From a virus: a stretch of 23,965 nucleotides of DNA. The notes beneath the pieces are model-generated. The model was given only the letters and a program-made list of their open reading frames with translations, had not been told where the DNA came from and did not search any database. Made by a program: the position numbers and the translations under genes. Location: the IMG/VR virus record IMGVR_UViG_3300029309_000347, positions 1 through 23,965 of that record; one strand, written 5' to 3'. This document shows, in pieces, positions 2,230 through 16,350 of the stretch (position 1 is the first letter of the stretch; each line of letters starts with the position of its first letter).

Positions 2230-3842
2230 CAGTAAGTAGCACAACAGTTAAACAATCGTATGCAGGTAATGGCAGCACTTCTGCTTTTACCTATTCGTTT
2301 TTAATTAATTCAACAGCTGAATTAAAAGTAATTATCCGTACCAATAGCACAGGAACAGAAACGGTAAAAACTATAACTACACATTACAACGTCAGTGATA
2401 GTGCTGGATCAGGAACGGTAACATTTACTTCTGGTAATATACCAGCTTCAGGTGAAACAGTTGTTCTTATTCGTGACACAAATTTAACACAGGCAACTGA
2501 CTATGTTGAGAATGATCCATTCCCAGCAGAAAGTCATGAGAGTGCTTTAGATAAATTAACTTTACAAACACAAGAACTACAAGAAGAATTAGATAGATCT
2601 ATAAAACTGTCACGAACTAATACTATGACTTCAACAGAATTTACTGTTGGATCTACAGATCGTGCAAATAAAATTTTAGCTTTTGATAGTTCTGGAGAAA
2701 TTTCTGTTACTCAGGAATTAGGTTCTTTCAAAGGCAACTGGGCGGCAAGCACAGCGTATGTTGGTCGTGACATTGTTAAAGATACATCAACAAATAATAT
2801 TTTTATTGTTAATACTGCACATACATCTTCTGGTTCGCAGCCTTTAACAACAAATGCAAATTCTGCTAAATACGATTTATTAGTTGATGCTTCTTCAGCA
2901 ACTACAAGTCAAACTGCTGCTGCATCTTCTGCAACAGCTGCTGCTAGTTCAGCAACAACTGCATCTACTCAGGCATCAAATGCTGCATCGTCAGCGACAG
3001 CTGCGGCTTCATCCGCTACTTCTGCTGCTTCTAGCTTTGATAGTTTTGATGATCGTTATCTTGGTGCAAAAAGTTCTGATCCATCTGTAGATAATGATGG
3101 TGATGCACTTTTAACAGGTGCTTTATATTTTAACACAAGTGATAATGCTACAAAAGTTTATACTGGTTCTGCTTGGCAAACTGTAACTGTATCGGCAGCA
3201 AATCAAACAAACATAAATAGTGTTGCTGCAAATGCATCAAACATAAATGCAGTAGCTGGTAAGGCTACGGAAATAGGTTTACTCGGTACAGCTGATGCTG
3301 TTGCTGATATGGCACTCTTAGGCACAAGTGATGTAGTTGCTGACATGGCATTACTTGCTACTACAGATGTTATTGCTGATATGAATACACTTGCAACAAG
3401 TGATATTATTAGTGATCTCAATACCCTAGCGACAAGTGATATAGTAAGTGATCTCAACACACTTGCAACTAGTGATGTTGTAACTGACATGAATACTTTA
3501 GCGACATCATCCAATGTTACAAACATGGATACCCTAGCAACAAATATTTCTAATGTAAACAGCGTGGCTGGCTCTATAAGTAATGTTAATACAGCAGCAA
3601 CAAATATTGCAAATATAAATACAACTGCATCAAATATTTCTGGCGTAAATAGTTTTGCAGATAGATACAGAGTAGGATCTAGTGATCCAAGTTCATCACT
3701 TGATGAAGGAGATCTTTTTTACAATTCTACAAGTAATGTTTTAAAATATTACAATGGCAGTGCCTGGGTAAATGTAGAAGCAACAGACACAAGTAATTTA
3801 GCAACAAAAGGGTTTAGTATAGCACTTGCGGTTGCTCTCTAA
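2226..3842 (+). CDS. T7-like tail fibre protein
   Basis: 538 aa. The first ~125 residues match the T7 tail-fibre N-terminal type that anchors the fibre to the tail: an opening with AGNGSTSAFTYSF, then a TLQTQELQEELDRS helix. An Ala/Ser-rich segment follows (about residues 218-270, repeated ATAAASSAT), then an FDDRYLGAKSSDP module that recurs near the C-terminus as FADRYRVGSSDP. Between them are seven 12-residue repeats of the form ATSDxxxDxNTL (bases 3285-3536), probably an elongated trimeric shaft. There is no obvious catalytic or receptor-binding head, so receptor binding may be delegated to the downstream tail proteins. The start overlaps the previous stop. The T7-like N-terminus is the strongest evidence; the shaft structure is inferred. 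Confidence 0.85.
   Translation: MTVSSTTVKQSYAGNGSTSAFTYSFLINSTAELKVIIRTNSTGTETVKTITTHYNVSDSAGSGTVTFTSGNIPASGETVVLIRDTNLTQATDYVENDPFPAESHESALDKLTLQTQELQEELDRSIKLSRTNTMTSTEFTVGSTDRANKILAFDSSGEISVTQELGSFKGNWAASTAYVGRDIVKDTSTNNIFIVNTAHTSSGSQPLTTNANSAKYDLLVDASSATTSQTAAASSATAAASSATTASTQASNAASSATAAASSATSAASSFDSFDDRYLGAKSSDPSVDNDGDALLTGALYFNTSDNATKVYTGSAWQTVTVSAANQTNINSVAANASNINAVAGKATEIGLLGTADAVADMALLGTSDVVADMALLATTDVIADMNTLATSDIISDLNTLATSDIVSDLNTLATSDVVTDMNTLATSSNVTNMDTLATNISNVNSVAGSISNVNTAATNIANINTTASNISGVNSFADRYRVGSSDPSSSLDEGDLFYNSTSNVLKYYNGSAWVNVEATDTSNLATKGFSIALAVAL
3285..3536 (+). repeat. Seven tandem 36-bp coding repeats in the tail-fibre gene
   Basis: Seven in-frame 12-codon units can be read, from GTADAVADMALL to ATSSNVTNMDTL, with the middle units nearly identical at protein level (ATSDIISDLNTL, ATSDIVSDLNTL). 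Nucleotide identity is lower than protein identity, so the repeat is selected as protein. It is a likely site of length variation through slippage or recombination. Confidence 0.85.
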
Positions 3843-4184: not shown

Positions 4185-4993
4185 GTTATTTTGGTGCTGC
4201 ACCTACTGGTAATTTTATTAGTACCGCATCACAGCGTGTAACTGGTAGTACAAACAATTATGTAGATTTAGATCATGCAATATCTGCTTTGTCAGATGTA
4301 ATTGTTCTCGTAAATTCAGTTAAACAAGATATTACAAATTTAACTTTTACTTCTGGAAGCAGAATTACCCTGGGAGGTACGCTTGTCAGCAGCGATGTGG
4401 TTGAAATAATTTATTTAGGAAAATCAGTTGCAACACAAACACCTGGCACTGGCACAGTTACTAATGATATGTTAGCTGGTAGTATTGCAAATTCTAAACT
4501 TGCTAATTCTAGTATTACATTAAATGGCTCGGCAGTTTCTTTAGGTGGTAGTGCTAGTGTAGGTGGAACTAATACCCCAGCTTTTCATGCTAGTTCTGAT
4601 AATACTTTATCAGTTTCAAATAATACTAATACTAATGCCGCTTGTAATGTAGAGGCTTTTGATAGTGATTCTAAATATGACACAAGCACATTTCGTTTTA
4701 CGCCTGGTGTTACAGGTAAGTATTTTTTTTACATTCAAACAAGGATAAGCGAAAGTAGTGGTAGAATACAAGTTGCACTTTACAAAAATGGAAGTGTTTT
4801 AAGTCAATCTAGTGGTCATATAGAAATGGAAAATTCAGGAGCTGGTAATAATACTTTTACTGGAGTAAACGGCTCTTGTATAACTAATTGCACAAGCACA
4901 AGTGATTATTTTGAAGCTTTTGTGTGGCATAAAGATGGCTCAACTAAAAATATGACTAATAGAGTATTTCTGGGATATAAAATAATAGAATAA
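4181..4993 (+). CDS. Tail fibre/host-recognition protein with C-terminal C1q-like domain
   Basis: 270 aa. The N-terminal ~110 residues contain the connector modules YVDLDHAISALSD and VEIIYLGKSVA followed by VTNDMLAGSIANSKLANSSI, typical of phage fibre stalks. The last ~135 residues (from PAFHASSDNTLSVSNN) have the C1q/TNF-like jelly-roll pattern: FxFTPGVTGKYFFYIQTRI, then QVALYKNG, and a terminal strand GYKIIE. Such domains form trimeric heads that bind receptors. Its start overlaps the previous stop by ATGA. It is one of several related tail proteins in tandem. Receptor specificity cannot be told from sequence. Confidence 0.7.
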   Translation: MSYFGAAPTGNFISTASQRVTGSTNNYVDLDHAISALSDVIVLVNSVKQDITNLTFTSGSRITLGGTLVSSDVVEIIYLGKSVATQTPGTGTVTNDMLAGSIANSKLANSSITLNGSAVSLGGSASVGGTNTPAFHASSDNTLSVSNNTNTNAACNVEAFDSDSKYDTSTFRFTPGVTGKYFFYIQTRISESSGRIQVALYKNGSVLSQSSGHIEMENSGAGNNTFTGVNGSCITNCTSTSDYFEAFVWHKDGSTKNMTNRVFLGYKIIE

Positions 4994-10021: not shown

Positions 10022-10294
10022 ATGGTAGCAAAGAGGTTTCAAGATCCCAAGGGTGGATTGAATGCTGCTGGTAGAAAAAAGTTTGGTGTTAAAGCACCCG
10101 TTCGAAAAGCAAAAGCTGGCTCGAAAGATTTTAAACGGAGAGTTAGTTTCGCTGCTCGGTTCTCAGGAGTTAAGGGTAGTCTTAAAGATAAAAAAGGAAG
10201 ACCGACCAGGTTAGCTTTAGCATTAAAAAAATGGGGATTTCGTAACAAAGAAAGTGCGAGAAAATTTGCACAAAAACATAAAAAGAAAACTTAA
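10022..10294 (+). CDS. Small basic protein, DUF6321-like
   Basis: 90 aa, strongly basic. The opening FQDPKGGLNAAGRKKFG and the later RRVSFAARFSGVKGSLKD and RPTRLALALKKWGF match a small protein family that I recall from marine phages, of the form DPKGGLTxAGR...RRxSFxARxxGM...KPTRxALALxxW. The function of that family is not known to me. The positive charge suggests nucleic-acid binding. It begins three bases after the stop of the membrane peptide with no strong ribosome-binding site, so coupling is likely. It opens a run of five or six tiny basic proteins. Confidence 0.65.
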   Translation: MVAKRFQDPKGGLNAAGRKKFGVKAPVRKAKAGSKDFKRRVSFAARFSGVKGSLKDKKGRPTRLALALKKWGFRNKESARKFAQKHKKKT

Positions 10295-10316
10295 AGAACA
10301 GCAGTACTTTGAGTTA

Positions 10317-10475
10317 ATGAATATTCAACCTCCTGAAGATACGAGATCCCCACCAGAAAAATTTCTGGAGATGAAACAAAAGAACAAACAATGCAAAGAC
10401 TGTACGAAAGAATTAATACTTGGTGTCAATACATCCTGGATGTGCTGGGATTGCGAAGCCAACCCATACAACTAA
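10317..10475 (+). CDS. Small zinc-ribbon-like protein
   Basis: 52 aa if started at the ATG at 10317; the same frame extends upstream to a GTG at 10254 that would overlap the preceding gene by 41 bases. The product has two CxxC knuckles (CKDC and CWDC) separated by 16 residues, a typical zinc-ribbon layout, and a Pro-rich N-terminus. There is no good ribosome-binding sequence for either start. It could bind DNA, RNA or a protein partner such as RNA polymerase; none can be shown from sequence. Confidence 0.55.
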   Translation: MNIQPPEDTRSPPEKFLEMKQKNKQCKDCTKELILGVNTSWMCWDCEANPYN

Positions 10476-10486
10476 GGAGAATACCT

Positions 10487-10594
10487 ATGCCAGGTAAAAT
10501 GAAAAAGAAAACTAAGAAAGCCAAGAAGCAAGCAGCAACTGCTATGTCTATGAAGAAGGCTGGTAAAAAACCAAAAGGTAAAATGAAATACTAA
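10487..10594 (+). CDS. 35-residue Lys-rich protein
   Basis: AAGGAGA lies six bases before the ATG. The product (MPGKMKKKTKKAKKQAATA..., ending KGKMKY) is roughly 40 percent Lys and has no hydrophobic core, so it is probably disordered and nucleic-acid binding. Very small basic peptides like this are common in phage genomes near structural or lysis genes. It fits tightly between its neighbours: 11 bases after one stop and one base before the next ATG. The longer frame upstream (from 10391) overlaps the zinc-ribbon gene and is not needed. Confidence 0.6.
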   Translation: MPGKMKKKTKKAKKQAATAMSMKKAGKKPKGKMKY

Positions 10595-10595
10595 A

Positions 10596-10730
10596 ATGGC
10601 TAAAAAAAAATCAACAGTAAACAAAGCTGGTAATTATACAAAACCAGGTATGAGAAAGAAGCTCTTTCAGCGGATCAAAGCTAGTGCTAGTTATGGAACA
10701 GCAGCTGGCAAATGGTCTGCTAGAGTTTAA
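10596..10730 (+). CDS. WSAR-type basic protein, N-terminal part (44 aa as read)
   Basis: The ORF starts MAKKKSTVNKAG and stops after ...GKWSARV. A small phage family that I remember has the form KPGxxxRIKAS...GxWSARKAQxLAxxYKxxGGGYK. Here the first part ends at WSAR, then one Val codon and TAA, while KAQALARLYKKRGGGYK resumes 38 bases later in another frame (10763-10813). So either the protein is truncated to 44 residues, or the two parts are joined by an unusual decoding event. Upstream spacing (ATG one base after the previous stop) suggests coupling. The product is basic throughout. Confidence 0.55.
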   Translation: MAKKKSTVNKAGNYTKPGMRKKLFQRIKASASYGTAAGKWSARV

Positions 10731-10762
10731 CCCCCATTCTTTATGGGTGGGGGGATGTTAGA
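10725..10762 (+). other. 38-nt hairpin-bearing interruption between matching AGA codons
   Basis: The segment runs from just after AGA (10722-10724) through a second AGA (10760-10762). It contains gtt then TAA in the upstream frame. A hairpin forms with CC (10731-32) plus CCCAT (10733-37) pairing ATGGG (10743-47) and GG (10749-50), leaving T48 bulged and a five-base loop. An alternative outer pairing is TAAC/GTTA plus CCCC/GGGG. A six-G run (10749-10754) lies five bases before the second AGA. No T-tract follows on either strand, so it does not look like an intrinsic terminator. Skipping it restores WSAR-KAQ exactly. Confidence 0.6.
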
Positions 10763-10816
10763 AAAGCACAAGCTCTTGCCAGGTTATATAAAAAACGTGG
10801 CGGAGGATATAAGTAA
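10760..10816 (+). pseudogene. Out-of-frame C-terminal part of the WSAR/KAQ protein
   Basis: Read from AGA at 10760 the frame gives RKAQALARLYKKRGGGYK and a TAA that overlaps the next ATG (TAATG). This is the missing C-terminus of the protein begun at 10596. The GGAGG inside the GGG codons (10802-10806) also serves as ribosome-binding site for the gene at 10816, which may by itself explain part of the conservation. No start codon lies in this frame after the hairpin, so it is either dead sequence or reached by bypass or frameshift. Confidence 0.55.
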
Positions 10817-10977
10817 TGGCAAAGAAAAAACAACTTACTAAAAGACAGAAAGATACTTTGAAAAAACATTCTGTACATCATAGTAAAAAACACATGGCTA
10901 TGATGCGAAAAGAAATGCGAGCTGGAAAATCGTTTTCAGCTGCACATAAGAAAGCCAAAAAGCTAGTGGGAAAATAA
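10816..10977 (+). CDS. 53-residue basic protein, LTxxQKxTLKKHSxHHxxKHMxxMR type
   Basis: The ATG overlaps the TAA of the split gene (TAATG) and follows GGAGG by nine bases. The product reads LTKRQKDTLKKHSVHHSKKH, then MAMMRKEMRAGKSFSAAHKKA, a pattern I recall from tiny phage proteins of unknown function. It is helical, rich in Lys and His, and without Cys. It stops directly before the next ATG. Function unknown; nucleic-acid or metal binding are possibilities only. Confidence 0.65.
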   Translation: MAKKKQLTKRQKDTLKKHSVHHSKKHMAMMRKEMRAGKSFSAAHKKAKKLVGK

Positions 10978-11226
10978 ATGGCTTTAAAAAAAAGTCAGCG
11001 AAGTCTTAAAGCCTGGGGTAAACAAAAATGGAGAACTAAGTCAGGAAAGAAATCATCTGTAACTGGTGAAAGGTATCTTCCCTCCGCTGCTATCAAAGCT
11101 CTTACACCAGCTGAATATGCTGCATCTACAAGAGCAAAAAGAAAAGCTAAAAGAAAAGGCAAACAAGTTTCCAAGCAACCCAAACGAATTGCTAAGAAGA
11201 CTGCTAAGTATAGACGTTTTAGTTAA
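10978..11226 (+). CDS. 82-residue basic protein, DUF5872-like
   Basis: The opening SLKAWGKQKWRTKSGKKSS, then GERYLPSAAIKALTPAEYAA and TRAKRKAKRKGKQVSK, follows a small viral family of the form W(T/G)KQKWxTKSGKxS...RYLPxxAxxxLxxxEYAAxxxxK, which I associate with DUF5872 from memory. Function is unknown. The ATG abuts the previous stop. It is the last protein gene before the tRNA, closing the run of small basic genes. The Lys/Arg-rich C-terminus suggests nucleic-acid contact. Confidence 0.65.
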   Translation: MALKKSQRSLKAWGKQKWRTKSGKKSSVTGERYLPSAAIKALTPAEYAASTRAKRKAKRKGKQVSKQPKRIAKKTAKYRRFS

Positions 11227-11254: not shown

Positions 11255-11344
11255 GGAGAGGTGGCTGAGTGGTTGAAAGCACTAGTCTTGAAAACTAGCA
11301 ATCGTGCAAGCGGTTCGTGGGTTCAAATCCCACCCTCTCCGCCA
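11255..11344 (+). tRNA. tRNA-Ser(UGA), complete, with encoded CCA
   Basis: The full class II cloverleaf can be drawn. The acceptor stem is GGAGAGG/CCTCTCC, the D arm GCT...AGC with GTGG in the loop, and the anticodon stem CTAGT/ACTAG around CTTGAAA (anticodon TGA at 11289-11291). The long variable arm is AATCG/CGGTT, and the T arm GTGGG/CCCAC with loop TTCAAAT. Discriminator G and CCA follow, and the next base is the integrase stop. The structure is undamaged, so it is probably functional. Its anticodon stem differs from the anticodon-arm-like sequence in the putative attP (ACGGT/ACCGT), so it is not simply a captured copy of the presumed target gene. Confidence 0.95.
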
Positions 11345-12577
11345 TTAGAATAATACTGCTTCCAATTTTTTAATATCTTTCAAAGCATTAGGATCACTGA
11401 ATGTACCATAACCATTTTGTGTTGTAGTATCATTGTGACCAACACGAATAGCAATCGTCTTTGGATCAACACCCATCTTCTGCCATTGAGATATAATGTA
11501 TCTTCTGAACATTTTAGTATCAACAAGATCACCAGGTATATTTGCTTTCTCACATTTATCTCTCAACAATTCTAAAGTTCTTGTGTAAGACACAGAAAAC
11601 AAACTTCCCTTTTTTATATTTTTTACTTTTATATATTTAGCAAAATGCTTCATTAGTTTTGGTGGTAAAGGAACTATTCTTTCACCCTCCTCTGCATCTT
11701 CAACACGAAGATGAGCCGCTTTTGTTACGCTTACAGTTTTAAATCTGTAATCTTTACTTTTATTAATAGTCAAAGAAAAATTATTCCAATCAAAATCCTC
11801 AACAGTCAAAGCAGCAGCTTCACCCCAACGACAACCAGTTGCATACTGGATCATTAAAAGGAAAGCACTCTCACATACCATAGGTACATTAGCTGTTTTA
11901 GATCTAGGATCAATTCTTCCAACAATTTTATTTAAGTTACCATATTGATTTGAGTTATGACCAAACATCATAGAGTATTCAAGTTCTTCAAATAATCTAT
12001 TAGCTTGTTTTTGTGTCATAGCCTTCACATGCTTTGGCGTATAATCAATTACAATTTTTTTATATGCATGATGTGGAGAAACCATCCAGCCTAATTGCTC
12101 TGCTTTCTCTAATAAGTTATTTAATATAGCTCTAATTCTTTTTGATTTAGATTTAGAGAACTTGTGCTTCAATCTCATATCCTTCAGAAAAGTATCATAC
12201 CAATCTGTAGTAATAGTTTTTAAAGCAGTATTCTCACCATGAGATAAGATCTTAAATAATGCTCTAACATTATCTTCTAATCTGTTTTTTGAGGATTGCT
12301 TCATACCATCTTTTGCAAGTGGATTTTCCTCCTTGTTCAAAACTTTAAGATCCCAATCTTTTTGCAATCTTCTGTGGCATTCACCCAGGCTATGCAAGCC
12401 AATATTTTTAGATGCAGCATCTGCTTCCTGGTTAAAGGATCTAGCAGCTTCTTTGCATTCAGTTCTAGTCTTTCTAAACAATGTTGCGTACTTAACCTTA
12501 CCGTTAGGATACACACCATTAGGCACAGTAACTTTAAACATCTTTTTACCGTGGTTCGTGCAAGCTCGAATATTCAT
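11345..12577 (-). CDS. int: Tyrosine recombinase (phage integrase)
   Basis: 410 aa. The N-terminal part is an arm- and core-binding region. The catalytic domain shows R250 (GCRWGEAAALT), then K355-x-x-R358 (TKMFRRYI) where most members have HxxR, then GH381 and nucleophile Y390 (GHNDTTTQNGYGTF). Replacing the first box His by Lys is a known variation in this family but worth noting. The ATG follows AAGGAG with good spacing. The gene is transcribed toward, and its stop touches, the 3' end of the tRNA-Ser gene. Its upstream side faces the probable attP at 12636-12822. It would catalyse integration and, with an unidentified excisionase, excision. Confidence 0.93.
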   Translation of the reverse strand: MNIRACTNHGKKMFKVTVPNGVYPNGKVKYATLFRKTRTECKEAARSFNQEADAASKNIGLHSLGECHRRLQKDWDLKVLNKEENPLAKDGMKQSSKNRLEDNVRALFKILSHGENTALKTITTDWYDTFLKDMRLKHKFSKSKSKRIRAILNNLLEKAEQLGWMVSPHHAYKKIVIDYTPKHVKAMTQKQANRLFEELEYSMMFGHNSNQYGNLNKIVGRIDPRSKTANVPMVCESAFLLMIQYATGCRWGEAAALTVEDFDWNNFSLTINKSKDYRFKTVSVTKAAHLRVEDAEEGERIVPLPPKLMKHFAKYIKVKNIKKGSLFSVSYTRTLELLRDKCEKANIPGDLVDTKMFRRYIISQWQKMGVDPKTIAIRVGHNDTTTQNGYGTFSDPNALKDIKKLEAVLF

Positions 12578-12636
12578 AATTTATTCTCCTTTTATTCTAT
12601 TTTATATAAGCAATCTGCCGATATTTTGCAAGATGT

Positions 12637-12655
12637 TGCTATGGTTTTGCTATGG
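12637..12655 (+). repeat. TGCTATGG direct pair, copy 1 (left arm of putative attP)
   Basis: TGCTATGG occurs at 12637-12644 and 12648-12655, separated by TTT, giving an 11-bp period, and is followed by ATTTG. It lies 93 bases left of the anticodon-arm core. Two units on the same face of the helix suggest binding by a protein dimer or two integrase arm domains. Confidence 0.65.
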
Positions 12656-12660
12656 ATTTG

Positions 12661-12702
12661 AATGGGAAATCAATAGAATATCAATAGAACAACAATGGGA
12701 AA
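12661..12702 (+). repeat. 11-bp-phased ATCAATAGAA and AATGGGAAA repeats
   Basis: ATCAATAGAA occurs at 12669-12678 and 12680-12689 (11-bp period). AATGGGAAA occurs at 12661-12669 and 12694-12702 (33 bp, three turns), and TGGGAAA again at 12716-12722. They lie between the left TGCTATGG pair and the core. They may be excisionase or accessory protein sites. Confidence 0.55.
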
Positions 12703-12798
12703 AGTACTGGTTTTCTGGGAAAAACACTAGGTATTACCTGGTTACATAACGGTCTTGAAAACCGTAACAGCATTAAGTTTTTTGTGGATTATTTTTCT

Positions 12799-12817
12799 TG
12801 CTATGGTCGTGCTATGG
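12799..12817 (+). repeat. TGCTATGG direct pair, copy 2 (right arm of putative attP)
   Basis: TGCTATGG occurs at 12799-12806 and 12810-12817 with TCG between, 11-bp period, followed by ATTTC. It lies 33 bases right of the core and overlaps the last codons and stop of the leftward gene at 12801-13181. Same orientation as copy 1. Confidence 0.65.
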
Positions 12818-13181
12818 ATTTCAAACCTTCACACACAGGACAGTTCCTTTGTAACTTTTGTAAGTATTTTATAAATGTATATGGCTGAATGCTTTTTATT
12901 TGACCGAGAGTTGGAGAAAGTTTCTGCACCCTTAACTTCGTAACTGGATCATTGTAAAAGATTAACCAGGCTGGGATATGAGATCTTTTTGCGAGCTTAA
13001 TTGTAACAGAACAAGTCTTGTATGTTTGACCTTTGTCAAATGCATGTTCAATCAAACATAATGGTTCGTAGCACTTCTCACAGCATGGAACCAGGTCAAT
13101 ATCAACAGCTGCTATTCCAGAATATTGTCGATGCCATTCGTTAAATGCTGATCCCCTACTATGGTAGATCTTTCTAGCCAC
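12801..13181 (-). CDS. Zinc-finger-like hypothetical protein, last gene of the leftward operon
   Basis: 126 aa from a GTG that overlaps the preceding stop (TAGTG). A CCEKCYEPLC cluster near residue 33 and a CPVC pair near the C-terminus could bind zinc. Between them is KLAKRSHIPAWLIFYND, a segment typical of small phage nuclease- or helicase-associated hypothetical proteins, but no catalytic residues can be assigned. Its 3' end contains copy 2 of the TGCTATGG pair, so coding and attP functions overlap here. Function unknown; a DNA-related role is likely from its operon. Confidence 0.6.
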   Translation of the reverse strand: MARKIYHSRGSAFNEWHRQYSGIAAVDIDLVPCCEKCYEPLCLIEHAFDKGQTYKTCSVTIKLAKRSHIPAWLIFYNDPVTKLRVQKLSPTLGQIKSIQPYTFIKYLQKLQRNCPVCEGLKSIARP

Positions 13182-13366
13182 TATGCTTCTTCAGTCAGCG
13201 TGTGGGTAATAAGTTTTATTTGCAACTTAGAGTACCCACTTTTACCAGAAGTTAATTCTTCCTGACGCTGTCTGCACTCCCTGGAATTTTTTTCTTCTCG
13301 TAAGGAGTTAATGTGATCCAGGGATGTTTTTTCGTCAACCAAAATAAAATTTATTTCAGATTGCAT
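13181..13366 (-). CDS. Small hypothetical protein
   Basis: 61 aa if started at the ATG whose upstream sequence is AAGGTGCGAGAT (13366); an earlier in-frame ATG at 13375 is less well placed. The product is hydrophilic and helical (DEKTSLDHINSLREEKNSRE) with one Cys. No family recognised. It lies between an HTH protein and the zinc-finger-like protein, with overlapping ends, so it is expressed with them. A small, charged helical protein beside an integrase region could be a directionality factor, but nothing in the sequence proves it. Confidence 0.5.
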   Translation of the reverse strand: MQSEINFILVDEKTSLDHINSLREEKNSRECRQRQEELTSGKSGYSKLQIKLITHTLTEEA

Positions 13367-13580
13367 ATCTCGCACCTTTGTCTGTTAGCTCAATAGATCT
13401 TTGAGCTTCAGGCATGTGAGTTATAAAACCTCTTTTCTTCAACTGCATGCAATGTTTATGTACAGCTGACAGAGTTTTGTATCCCATTTCTTTTTGTAGT
13501 TCTGCAAAAGATGGAGAGAAGCCTTTTTCATTCCAATAATTTTGGATGACTTTTAAAACTTTAGCTTGTGCTTCTGTCAT
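13356..13580 (-). CDS. LexA-type winged-helix DNA-binding protein
   Basis: 74 aa. It consists only of an N-terminal LexA-like winged helix: LTEAQ-like opening (MTEAQAKVLKVIQNYWNEKG), then FSPSFAELQKEMGYKTLSAV and KKRGFITHMPEAQRSIELTD. There is no S24 protease domain, so it cannot self-cleave. It may regulate the leftward operon, act as a Cro-like factor, or act at the nearby attP. GGAG lies six bases before the ATG; the start overlaps the previous gene by 20 bases. Confidence 0.75.
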   Translation of the reverse strand: MTEAQAKVLKVIQNYWNEKGFSPSFAELQKEMGYKTLSAVHKHCMQLKKRGFITHMPEAQRSIELTDKGARYAI

Positions 13581-15714: not shown

Positions 15715-16311
15715 TTAGTAGTCAGTAAATAGAAAAGCACTGTCATATGTTGCTAAAAACGCACCAAACATAGCACCATCTAATGATGGTAAAGGATCTC
15801 TTGGTACATACCAATTGTAAGCAGAATAATGATCGTCACATCTTGAAATAATACACGCTTTAGTTTCACCAGTTGCAAACTTAACTAATCCAGCTTGTTC
15901 CTTTTGACTTATGAATTCTATATTTTTAAATTTTTGAAATACACTTACAAAACCGTATGAATAACCTTGTGTAAATGATTGATCTACAGCAATAATATTA
16001 TTAGTTGAGTTCCACCACCAAGATGCAGTTGCAACTTTTATTTGTGGTCTTTGTTCAGTTTCTTTGTAAAATACTGCTGTACCACTATGATCAATGTAAC
16101 AATTACATTGTCTTGATATTGGCTTTATTAAAAATTTAGAAATATCTACAGCCAAATATTCAGCATATTTTTTTAATACATCTATACCTATGTTATCCTG
16201 GTTCATGTGTCTTGATACAGATCTATGATCTATACCTAAATATTCTGCTGCTTCTTTTTGAGATTTGCCTTCTACTTTTTTTTCCAAGAAGACTTCTTTA
16301 AGTCTATGCAT
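15715..16311 (-). CDS. Phage repressor-like HTH protein without a recognisable S24 domain
   Basis: 198 aa from the ATG at 16311, which follows GGAAGGA by seven bases. A second in-frame ATG at 16338 (207 aa) has no ribosome-binding site and would be nearly leaderless. Residues ~15-37 (SQKEAAEYLGIDHRSVSRHM) are a clear helix-turn-helix. The remaining ~140 residues are beta-rich with WWW and a QCNCYID segment and a CDDHYSAYNWYVPRD stretch. I see no Ala-Gly cleavage site or Ser/Lys dyad of the LexA/cI protease. Divergent from the 16439 operon, it is the best candidate for the lysogeny repressor. How it would be induced is unclear. Confidence 0.7.
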   Translation of the reverse strand: MHRLKEVFLEKKVEGKSQKEAAEYLGIDHRSVSRHMNQDNIGIDVLKKYAEYLAVDISKFLIKPISRQCNCYIDHSGTAVFYKETEQRPQIKVATASWWWNSTNNIIAVDQSFTQGYSYGFVSVFQKFKNIEFISQKEQAGLVKFATGETKACIISRCDDHYSAYNWYVPRDPLPSLDGAMFGAFLATYDSAFLFTDY

Positions 16312-16350
16312 GCAATGTTCCTTCCGTTTAGGTGTCATATATTATTTTGT

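Follow-up and report, generated by a model that had tools for sequence, protein, structure and literature searches.

The question raised by this locus is why a phage should carry, on the two sides of its integrase gene, a complete serine tRNA gene and an isolated anticodon arm of a tRNA of the same isotype. In tRNA-dependent lysogeny, which has been proven with mutants in mycobacteriophages, a tyrosine integrase splits an essential host tRNA gene that is not restored, and its task passes to a tRNA of matching isotype encoded by the phage (PMC10865867). We consider it likely, judging from sequence, that the locus is an int-attP-tRNA module for this kind of lysogeny. The phage appears to integrate in the middle of the only host gene for a serine tRNA reading UCA and UCG, and its spare, complete tRNA appears to keep the cell alive.

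The phage and its int region

The window, that is, the whole stretch of DNA analysed (23,965 bp), is the linear virus record IMGVR_UViG_3300029309_000347, a fragment of an incomplete HTVC010P-type pelagiphage with a G+C content of 34-36%. This assignment was made by portal protein homology rather than by whole-genome phylogeny: the portal protein shares 58.9% identity over 99% with its counterpart in Pelagibacter phage HTVC100P, and it resembles those of the whole HTVC010P group. Since genomes of the group measure 34-36 kb, about one third of the genome is missing from the window. The window integrase was also encoded by 6 other viral contigs, and these with the window are the seven phages referred to below.

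11255-11344, plus strand: complete gene for a phage tRNA-Ser(UGA) with encoded CCA and the anticodon stem CTAGT/ACTAG (ARAGORN; Rfam RF00005, 65.6 bits); proposed rescue tRNA
11345-12577, minus strand: tyrosine integrase gene int, 410 aa (Pfam PF00589, Phage_integrase, 1.5e-10; PHROG phrog_1, integrase, 8.8e-32)
12638-12655, plus strand: left pair of arm-type-like repeats GCTATGG, 11 bp from start to start; GCTAWGG/GCTAHGG kept in all seven phages
12749-12765, plus strand: tRNA-Ser(UGA) anticodon arm ACGGT-CTTGAAA-ACCGT with TGA at the anticodon position; proposed attP core
12750-12764, plus strand: conserved 15-bp core CGGTCTTGAAAACCG, common to all seven phages and to the commonest SAR11 tRNA-Ser(UGA) stem type
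12800-12817, plus strand: right pair of arm-type-like repeats GCTATGG, 11 bp from start to start; overlaps the 3' end of ORF 12801-13181

The stop codon of int abuts the 3' end of the tRNA-Ser(UGA) gene with zero gap, the two genes having opposite orientations. The integrases of the relatives were 57-76% identical to the window integrase in their best tblastn segments, and int DNA identity among the phages with this type of integrase ranged from 71 to 100%. The int genes of relatives L003 and L005 are identical, so that at most six distinct int genes occur among the seven phages, window counted. Alignments of the integrases used as query recovered no phages beyond those found with the single sequence, and int as query found no relatives in genome contigs. 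In relative L004, and in none of the other phages, int and the left arm of attP are separated by an insertion of about 200 bp that may contain a small ORF.

In the proposed mechanism, the integrase would bind the GCTATGG arm repeats, and recombination would take place between the core at 12750-12764 and the predicted attB, an anticodon arm within the only tRNA-Ser(UGA) gene of the host. Strands would presumably be exchanged in the 7-bp anticodon loop, with the two halves of the stem serving presumably as core-binding sites. Integration would split the host gene so that neither junction holds a whole tRNA; the phage tRNA-Ser(UGA) would then be the sole reader of UCA and UCG and would allow lysogens to survive. 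The stem of the rescue tRNA, CTAGT/ACTAG as against CGGT/ACCG, probably hides this tRNA from the integrase, and of this step we are least certain. We infer the use of attB, the crossover point, the expression of the phage tRNA, the rescue and the essential role of the host tRNA from the features described here.

Predicted attP site

The earlier note had described a perfect tRNA-Ser(UGA) anticodon arm beside int, lying between phased repeats and lacking a tRNA 3' half, and a complete tRNA of the same specificity with a different stem across int. All of this was confirmed, with the correction that the unit conserved in the seven phages is the inner 15 bp and not the whole arm. The arm sits within the 223-bp gap from int to the next ORF, and direct GCTATGG repeats flank it on both sides with a spacing of 11 bp. 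A core with paired arm sites on either side, next to int, is what we take to be the anatomy of a lambda-type attP. No tRNA half adjoins the arm on either flank and ARAGORN called no tRNA at attP; the window phage thus departs from canonical tRNA-restoring integration, in which attP carries the displaced tRNA half.

The arm at 12749-12765 is unique in the window. Allowing up to 3 mismatches added only its own reverse complement, compared with 0.03 matches expected per shuffle. When the phage was compared with all 31 tRNA genes from one SAR11 genome, the 223-bp gap shared a 15-mer with tRNA-Ser(UGA), as against 13 bp or less for 219 other phage tiles; nothing longer than 15 bp was common to the window attP and SAR11 tRNA-Ser(UGA). 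Coincidence is made still less likely by the fact that the tRNA matched by the gap is of the isotype that the phage itself encodes.

The core CGGTCTTGAAAACCG and the repeat pairs were kept in 7/7 phages, while the immediate flanks vary. The loop is always CTTGAAA. The outermost stem pair is A-T in three phages, T-A in two, and an A-A mismatch in relatives L004 and L007. Because this pair varies and is A-A in two phages, the element seems to be conserved as a DNA core site and not as an RNA stem or hairpin. In view of the same A-A mismatches, we gave up the requirement that this outer pair agree with the host sequence.

This variation also bears on the reading in which 12749-12765 forms a terminator hairpin or a regulatory RNA stem and resembles an anticodon arm by chance, attP lying elsewhere. 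In favour of such an element are the stem itself, whose 5 bp pair perfectly and which has a T-rich stretch downstream, and the exchange of A-T (three phages) for T-A (two) in the outer pair. The A-A pair of L004 and L007 does not fit, nor do the invariable CTTGAAA loop and the direct-repeat pairs kept around the hairpin in all seven phages, and a terminator scan left the hairpin unflagged. We regard a chance resemblance as very improbable.

SAR11 tRNA-Ser(UGA) genes

The attP reading predicts a host tRNA-Ser(UGA) gene with a matching anticodon arm, for which the earlier note had suggested SAR11. The sequence GGTCTTGAAAACC had one match in 16 of 20 named SAR11 genomes and none in the other 4, every match lying inside tRNA-Ser(UGA). 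A looser arm pattern was matched in 308 of 397 Pelagibacterales genomes. Among the matches listed, CCGGT/ACCGG was the commonest SAR11 tRNA-Ser(UGA) stem; CTGGT/ACCAG, TCGGT/ACCGA and CTAGT/ACTAG were also present. The 15-bp core is common to the window attP and the CCGGT-type stem, and the inner CGGT/ACCG is common in SAR11. The expected match therefore held for the 15-bp core, but the exact window stem ACGGT/ACCGT was absent from all 397 Pelagibacterales genomes. The stem TCGGT/ACCGA, which gives the exact attP arm of L003 and L005, was present in 20 of the 397.

A second intact host copy, which the earlier note had named as making rescue needless, was not the rule in SAR11: the looser pattern occurred exactly once in 307 of the 308 matching genomes. 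The exception, G026 (L322, L323), has two near-identical tRNA-Ser(UGA) copies near contig ends, which may be an assembly duplicate. The tRNA inventory of one SAR11 genome comprised 31 tRNAs, with single tRNA-Ser genes for UGA, GGA and GCU and none for CGA. Because CGA is lacking there, tRNA-Ser(UGA) would by decoding rules be the sole reader of UCA and UCG, and by the same rules the host gene would be essential.

These counts also address the possibility that the arm is indeed attP but that the host can still read UCA and UCG with a further tRNA, intact or wobble-competent, in which case the phage tRNA would be helpful and no more. The absence of the stem ACGGT/ACCGT from the 397 SAR11 genomes leaves some room for such a host; the single tRNA-Ser(UGA) per SAR11 genome and the lack of CGA in the inventoried genome speak against it, and we hold it to be quite unlikely.

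Some SAR11 lineages (e.g. L321, L324-L332) naturally have the CTAGT/ACTAG stem and thus lack the integrase core. They might resist integration by the window phage. Since SAR11 clades have it too, the CTAGT stem is no longer taken to be specific to the phages.

In silico integration and search for lysogens

Junctions at the core were scripted for six phages and three hosts, and ARAGORN found no tRNA at attL or attR in any combination. The uncut host site in the same script was called as tRNA-Ser, and the control phage HTVC028P had its tRNA-Asn rebuilt with the host 3' half. Since attP has the arm only and no tRNA half, the tRNA stays broken at either junction. The proposal that the host gene is cut without repair is thus borne out in silico.

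Integrated copies, which the earlier note had proposed to look for, were sought in genomes and viral contigs, and none came to light. An int profile, run without a positive control, gave a single partial match of 57 positions and no full-length relative in the 397 Pelagibacterales genomes, and no relative in 379 genomes of one genus, a sample partly overlapping the 397. In viral contigs, a search for the core behind GCA returned intact tRNAs in 110 of 120 cases and no junction of the window phage. A degenerate pattern of the right-arm repeats matched only the known relatives of the window phage in viral contigs, again with no junction.

Three other viral contigs have an integrase beside a tRNA-Ser(UGA) 5' half: L243 near 4453-4495 (minus strand), L229 near 12240-12281 (plus strand) and L309 near 1264 (minus strand). 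The 5' halves end at the anticodon arm and are not followed by a 3' half. These are probably gene-restoring attP sites that carry the 5' half instead of the usual 3' half.

Phage tRNA-Ser(UGA)

No tRNA other than tRNA-Ser(UGA) was found in the window. In each of the six phages, the window among them, whose sequence 3' of int was readable, a complete tRNA-Ser(UGA) follows int at a distance of at most 90 bp. It is identical over 90 nt in the window, L002, L003, L005 and L006, and matches at 86/90 positions in L004. Identity across the family is thus 96-100%, with five of the six tRNAs identical, although int DNA identity falls to 71%; the tRNA is therefore under strong constraint. Its closest SAR11 host gene, at 84/90 positions, was one with the CTAGT stem. 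No sigma-70-like promoter was flagged directly ahead of the phage tRNA in a promoter scan whose hits did not exceed chance expectation.

The earlier suggestion that a phage tRNA of the same isotype replaces the split host gene is supported by comparison: the core match, the single-copy host gene and the linkage to int in 6/6 phages all point to a tRNA that would substitute for it. A phage tRNA could also serve lytic translation or replace host tRNAs cut by anticodon nucleases, roles that have been proposed for phage tRNAs and were raised in PMC10865867 as well; the place beside int would then be incidental. Usage of UCA per 1000 codons was 20.7 in the window, within the range of 19.5-24.3 of five phages without a tRNA and below the 23.9 of SAR11 loci, and a codon-usage need for the tRNA is accordingly disfavoured. 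None of the HTVC010P-type relatives examined carries a tRNA, and the one tRNA of the window is both linked to int (6/6) and of the isotype of the attP core. We therefore think such roles unlikely as the explanation of this gene, although a part played against anticodon nucleases is conceivable.

Divergence of the anticodon stem

The phage tRNA lies 1.5 kb from attP and points the same way; recombination between the two would therefore delete int. Beside the loop, the rescue tRNA has AGT..ACT in 6/6 phages, whereas all attP sites and most hosts have GGT..ACC. The rescue tRNA-Leu of HTVC011P has the same G-to-A change. In Fionnbharth, where phage sequences only were compared, the phage tRNA-Lys has the loop of an attP-like site next to int, CTTTTAA, but another adjoining stem. 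It is plausible from these sequences that the diverged stem stops the integrase from recombining the phage with itself, as had been suggested earlier. That rescue tRNAs of such phages are selected for an anticodon stem that their own integrase does not recognise, which would spare them attP x tRNA recombination, we can propose only tentatively. The phage tRNA may simply have been taken from a SAR11 clade with a natural CTAGT stem; if the donor clade had a tRNA without the core, the gene would have brought this immunity along, with no later change.

Comparison with known systems

The strategy itself is known already; what is new here is the integrase group, the use of tRNA-Ser(UGA) and the phage group. 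The closest parallel is found in Fionnbharth, Cluster L and other mycobacteriophages (Guerrero-Bustamante and Hatfull 2024, PMC10865867). Like the window phage, they have a tyrosine integrase, a short core in a single-copy host tRNA gene, paired arm-type sites, no reconstruction of the host gene and a phage tRNA of the same isotype. They differ in their hosts (Actinobacteria), in their tRNAs, which are Lys(TTT), Ile2(CAT) and Leu(CAA), and in the kind of evidence, mutants and lysogens there as against sequence for the window. The phage tRNA abuts int in the window but is about 2.8 kb away in Fionnbharth. In the Lj965 prophage of Lactobacillus johnsonii and the Lo5R7ANS-like prophages of Sinorhizobium the host tRNA is likewise described as unrestored and a cognate phage tRNA as present (PMC10865867, PMC12429752, PMC11476347); these phages and hosts are unrelated to those of the window.

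Among pelagiphages, HTVC011P, HTVC025P and uv-Fonsiphage-EPL are reported to integrate into tRNA-Leu(TAG), the lost function being replaced by a phage tRNA-Leu, and an 11-bp core was reported for uv-Fonsiphage-EPL (Chen et al. 2019, PMC6811365). In HTVC011P (KC465900.1) we found an unannotated complete tRNA-Leu(TAG) gene at 3001-3085, 30 bp after int, and, about 110 bp beyond it at 3193, a 13-bp anticodon-arm core TGGTCTTAGGAAC that also occurs in a SAR11 tRNA-Leu. SAR11 hosts and a short core are shared by the three phages and the window phage, and the position of the tRNA after int by HTVC011P and the window. However, the three are HTVC019P-type phages (Autographiviridae) with other integrases and tRNA-Leu, whereas the window phage is HTVC010P-type and uses tRNA-Ser(UGA).

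HTVC028P (MW273921.1) resembles the window phage in having a related portal protein (54.7%), an HTVC010P-type genome, an integrase and a tRNA target, although its integrase gave no tblastn match from the window int. It carries an unannotated 38-bp exact 5' half of SAR11 tRNA-Asn(GTT) in the intergenic region 10165-10601 (minus strand) upstream of its integrase. Unlike the window phage, it rebuilds the host gene in silico with this half, as in canonical integration, and has no complete tRNA. No tRNA gene was found in HTVC010P, HTVC100P, Lederberg, HTVC028P or Baldr, and HTVC028P was the only integrase-annotated isolate among these five records. One phage group would thus hold two solutions, HTVC028P repairing the host tRNA and the window phage replacing it.

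The first isolates of the HTVC010P-type group lacked an integrase and were taken as lytic. The authors of PMC10865867 left open how frequent tRNA-dependent lysogeny is beyond actinobacteriophages. The window phage would add one more case, apparently an independent one, from the phages of SAR11, bacteria that rank with the most abundant in the ocean. Under this reading the one tRNA seen in these phage records has a function, and a testable prediction follows on the host side.

Other genes of the window

Just ahead of the tRNA, positions 10022-11226 hold a string of small, highly lysine-rich ORFs, one of which matches phrog_14910 (function unknown) at 1e-34. Two genes on the other side of attP encode candidate regulators:

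13356-13580, minus strand: LexA-type DNA-binding domain protein, 74 aa, a possible lysogeny regulator (PF01726, 6.9e-15; phrog_362, transcriptional repressor, 6.7e-11)
15715-16338, minus strand: HTH (Cro/CI-like) protein, a candidate repressor (PF01381, 2.6e-6; weak matches to phrog_4 and phrog_3, transcriptional repressor)
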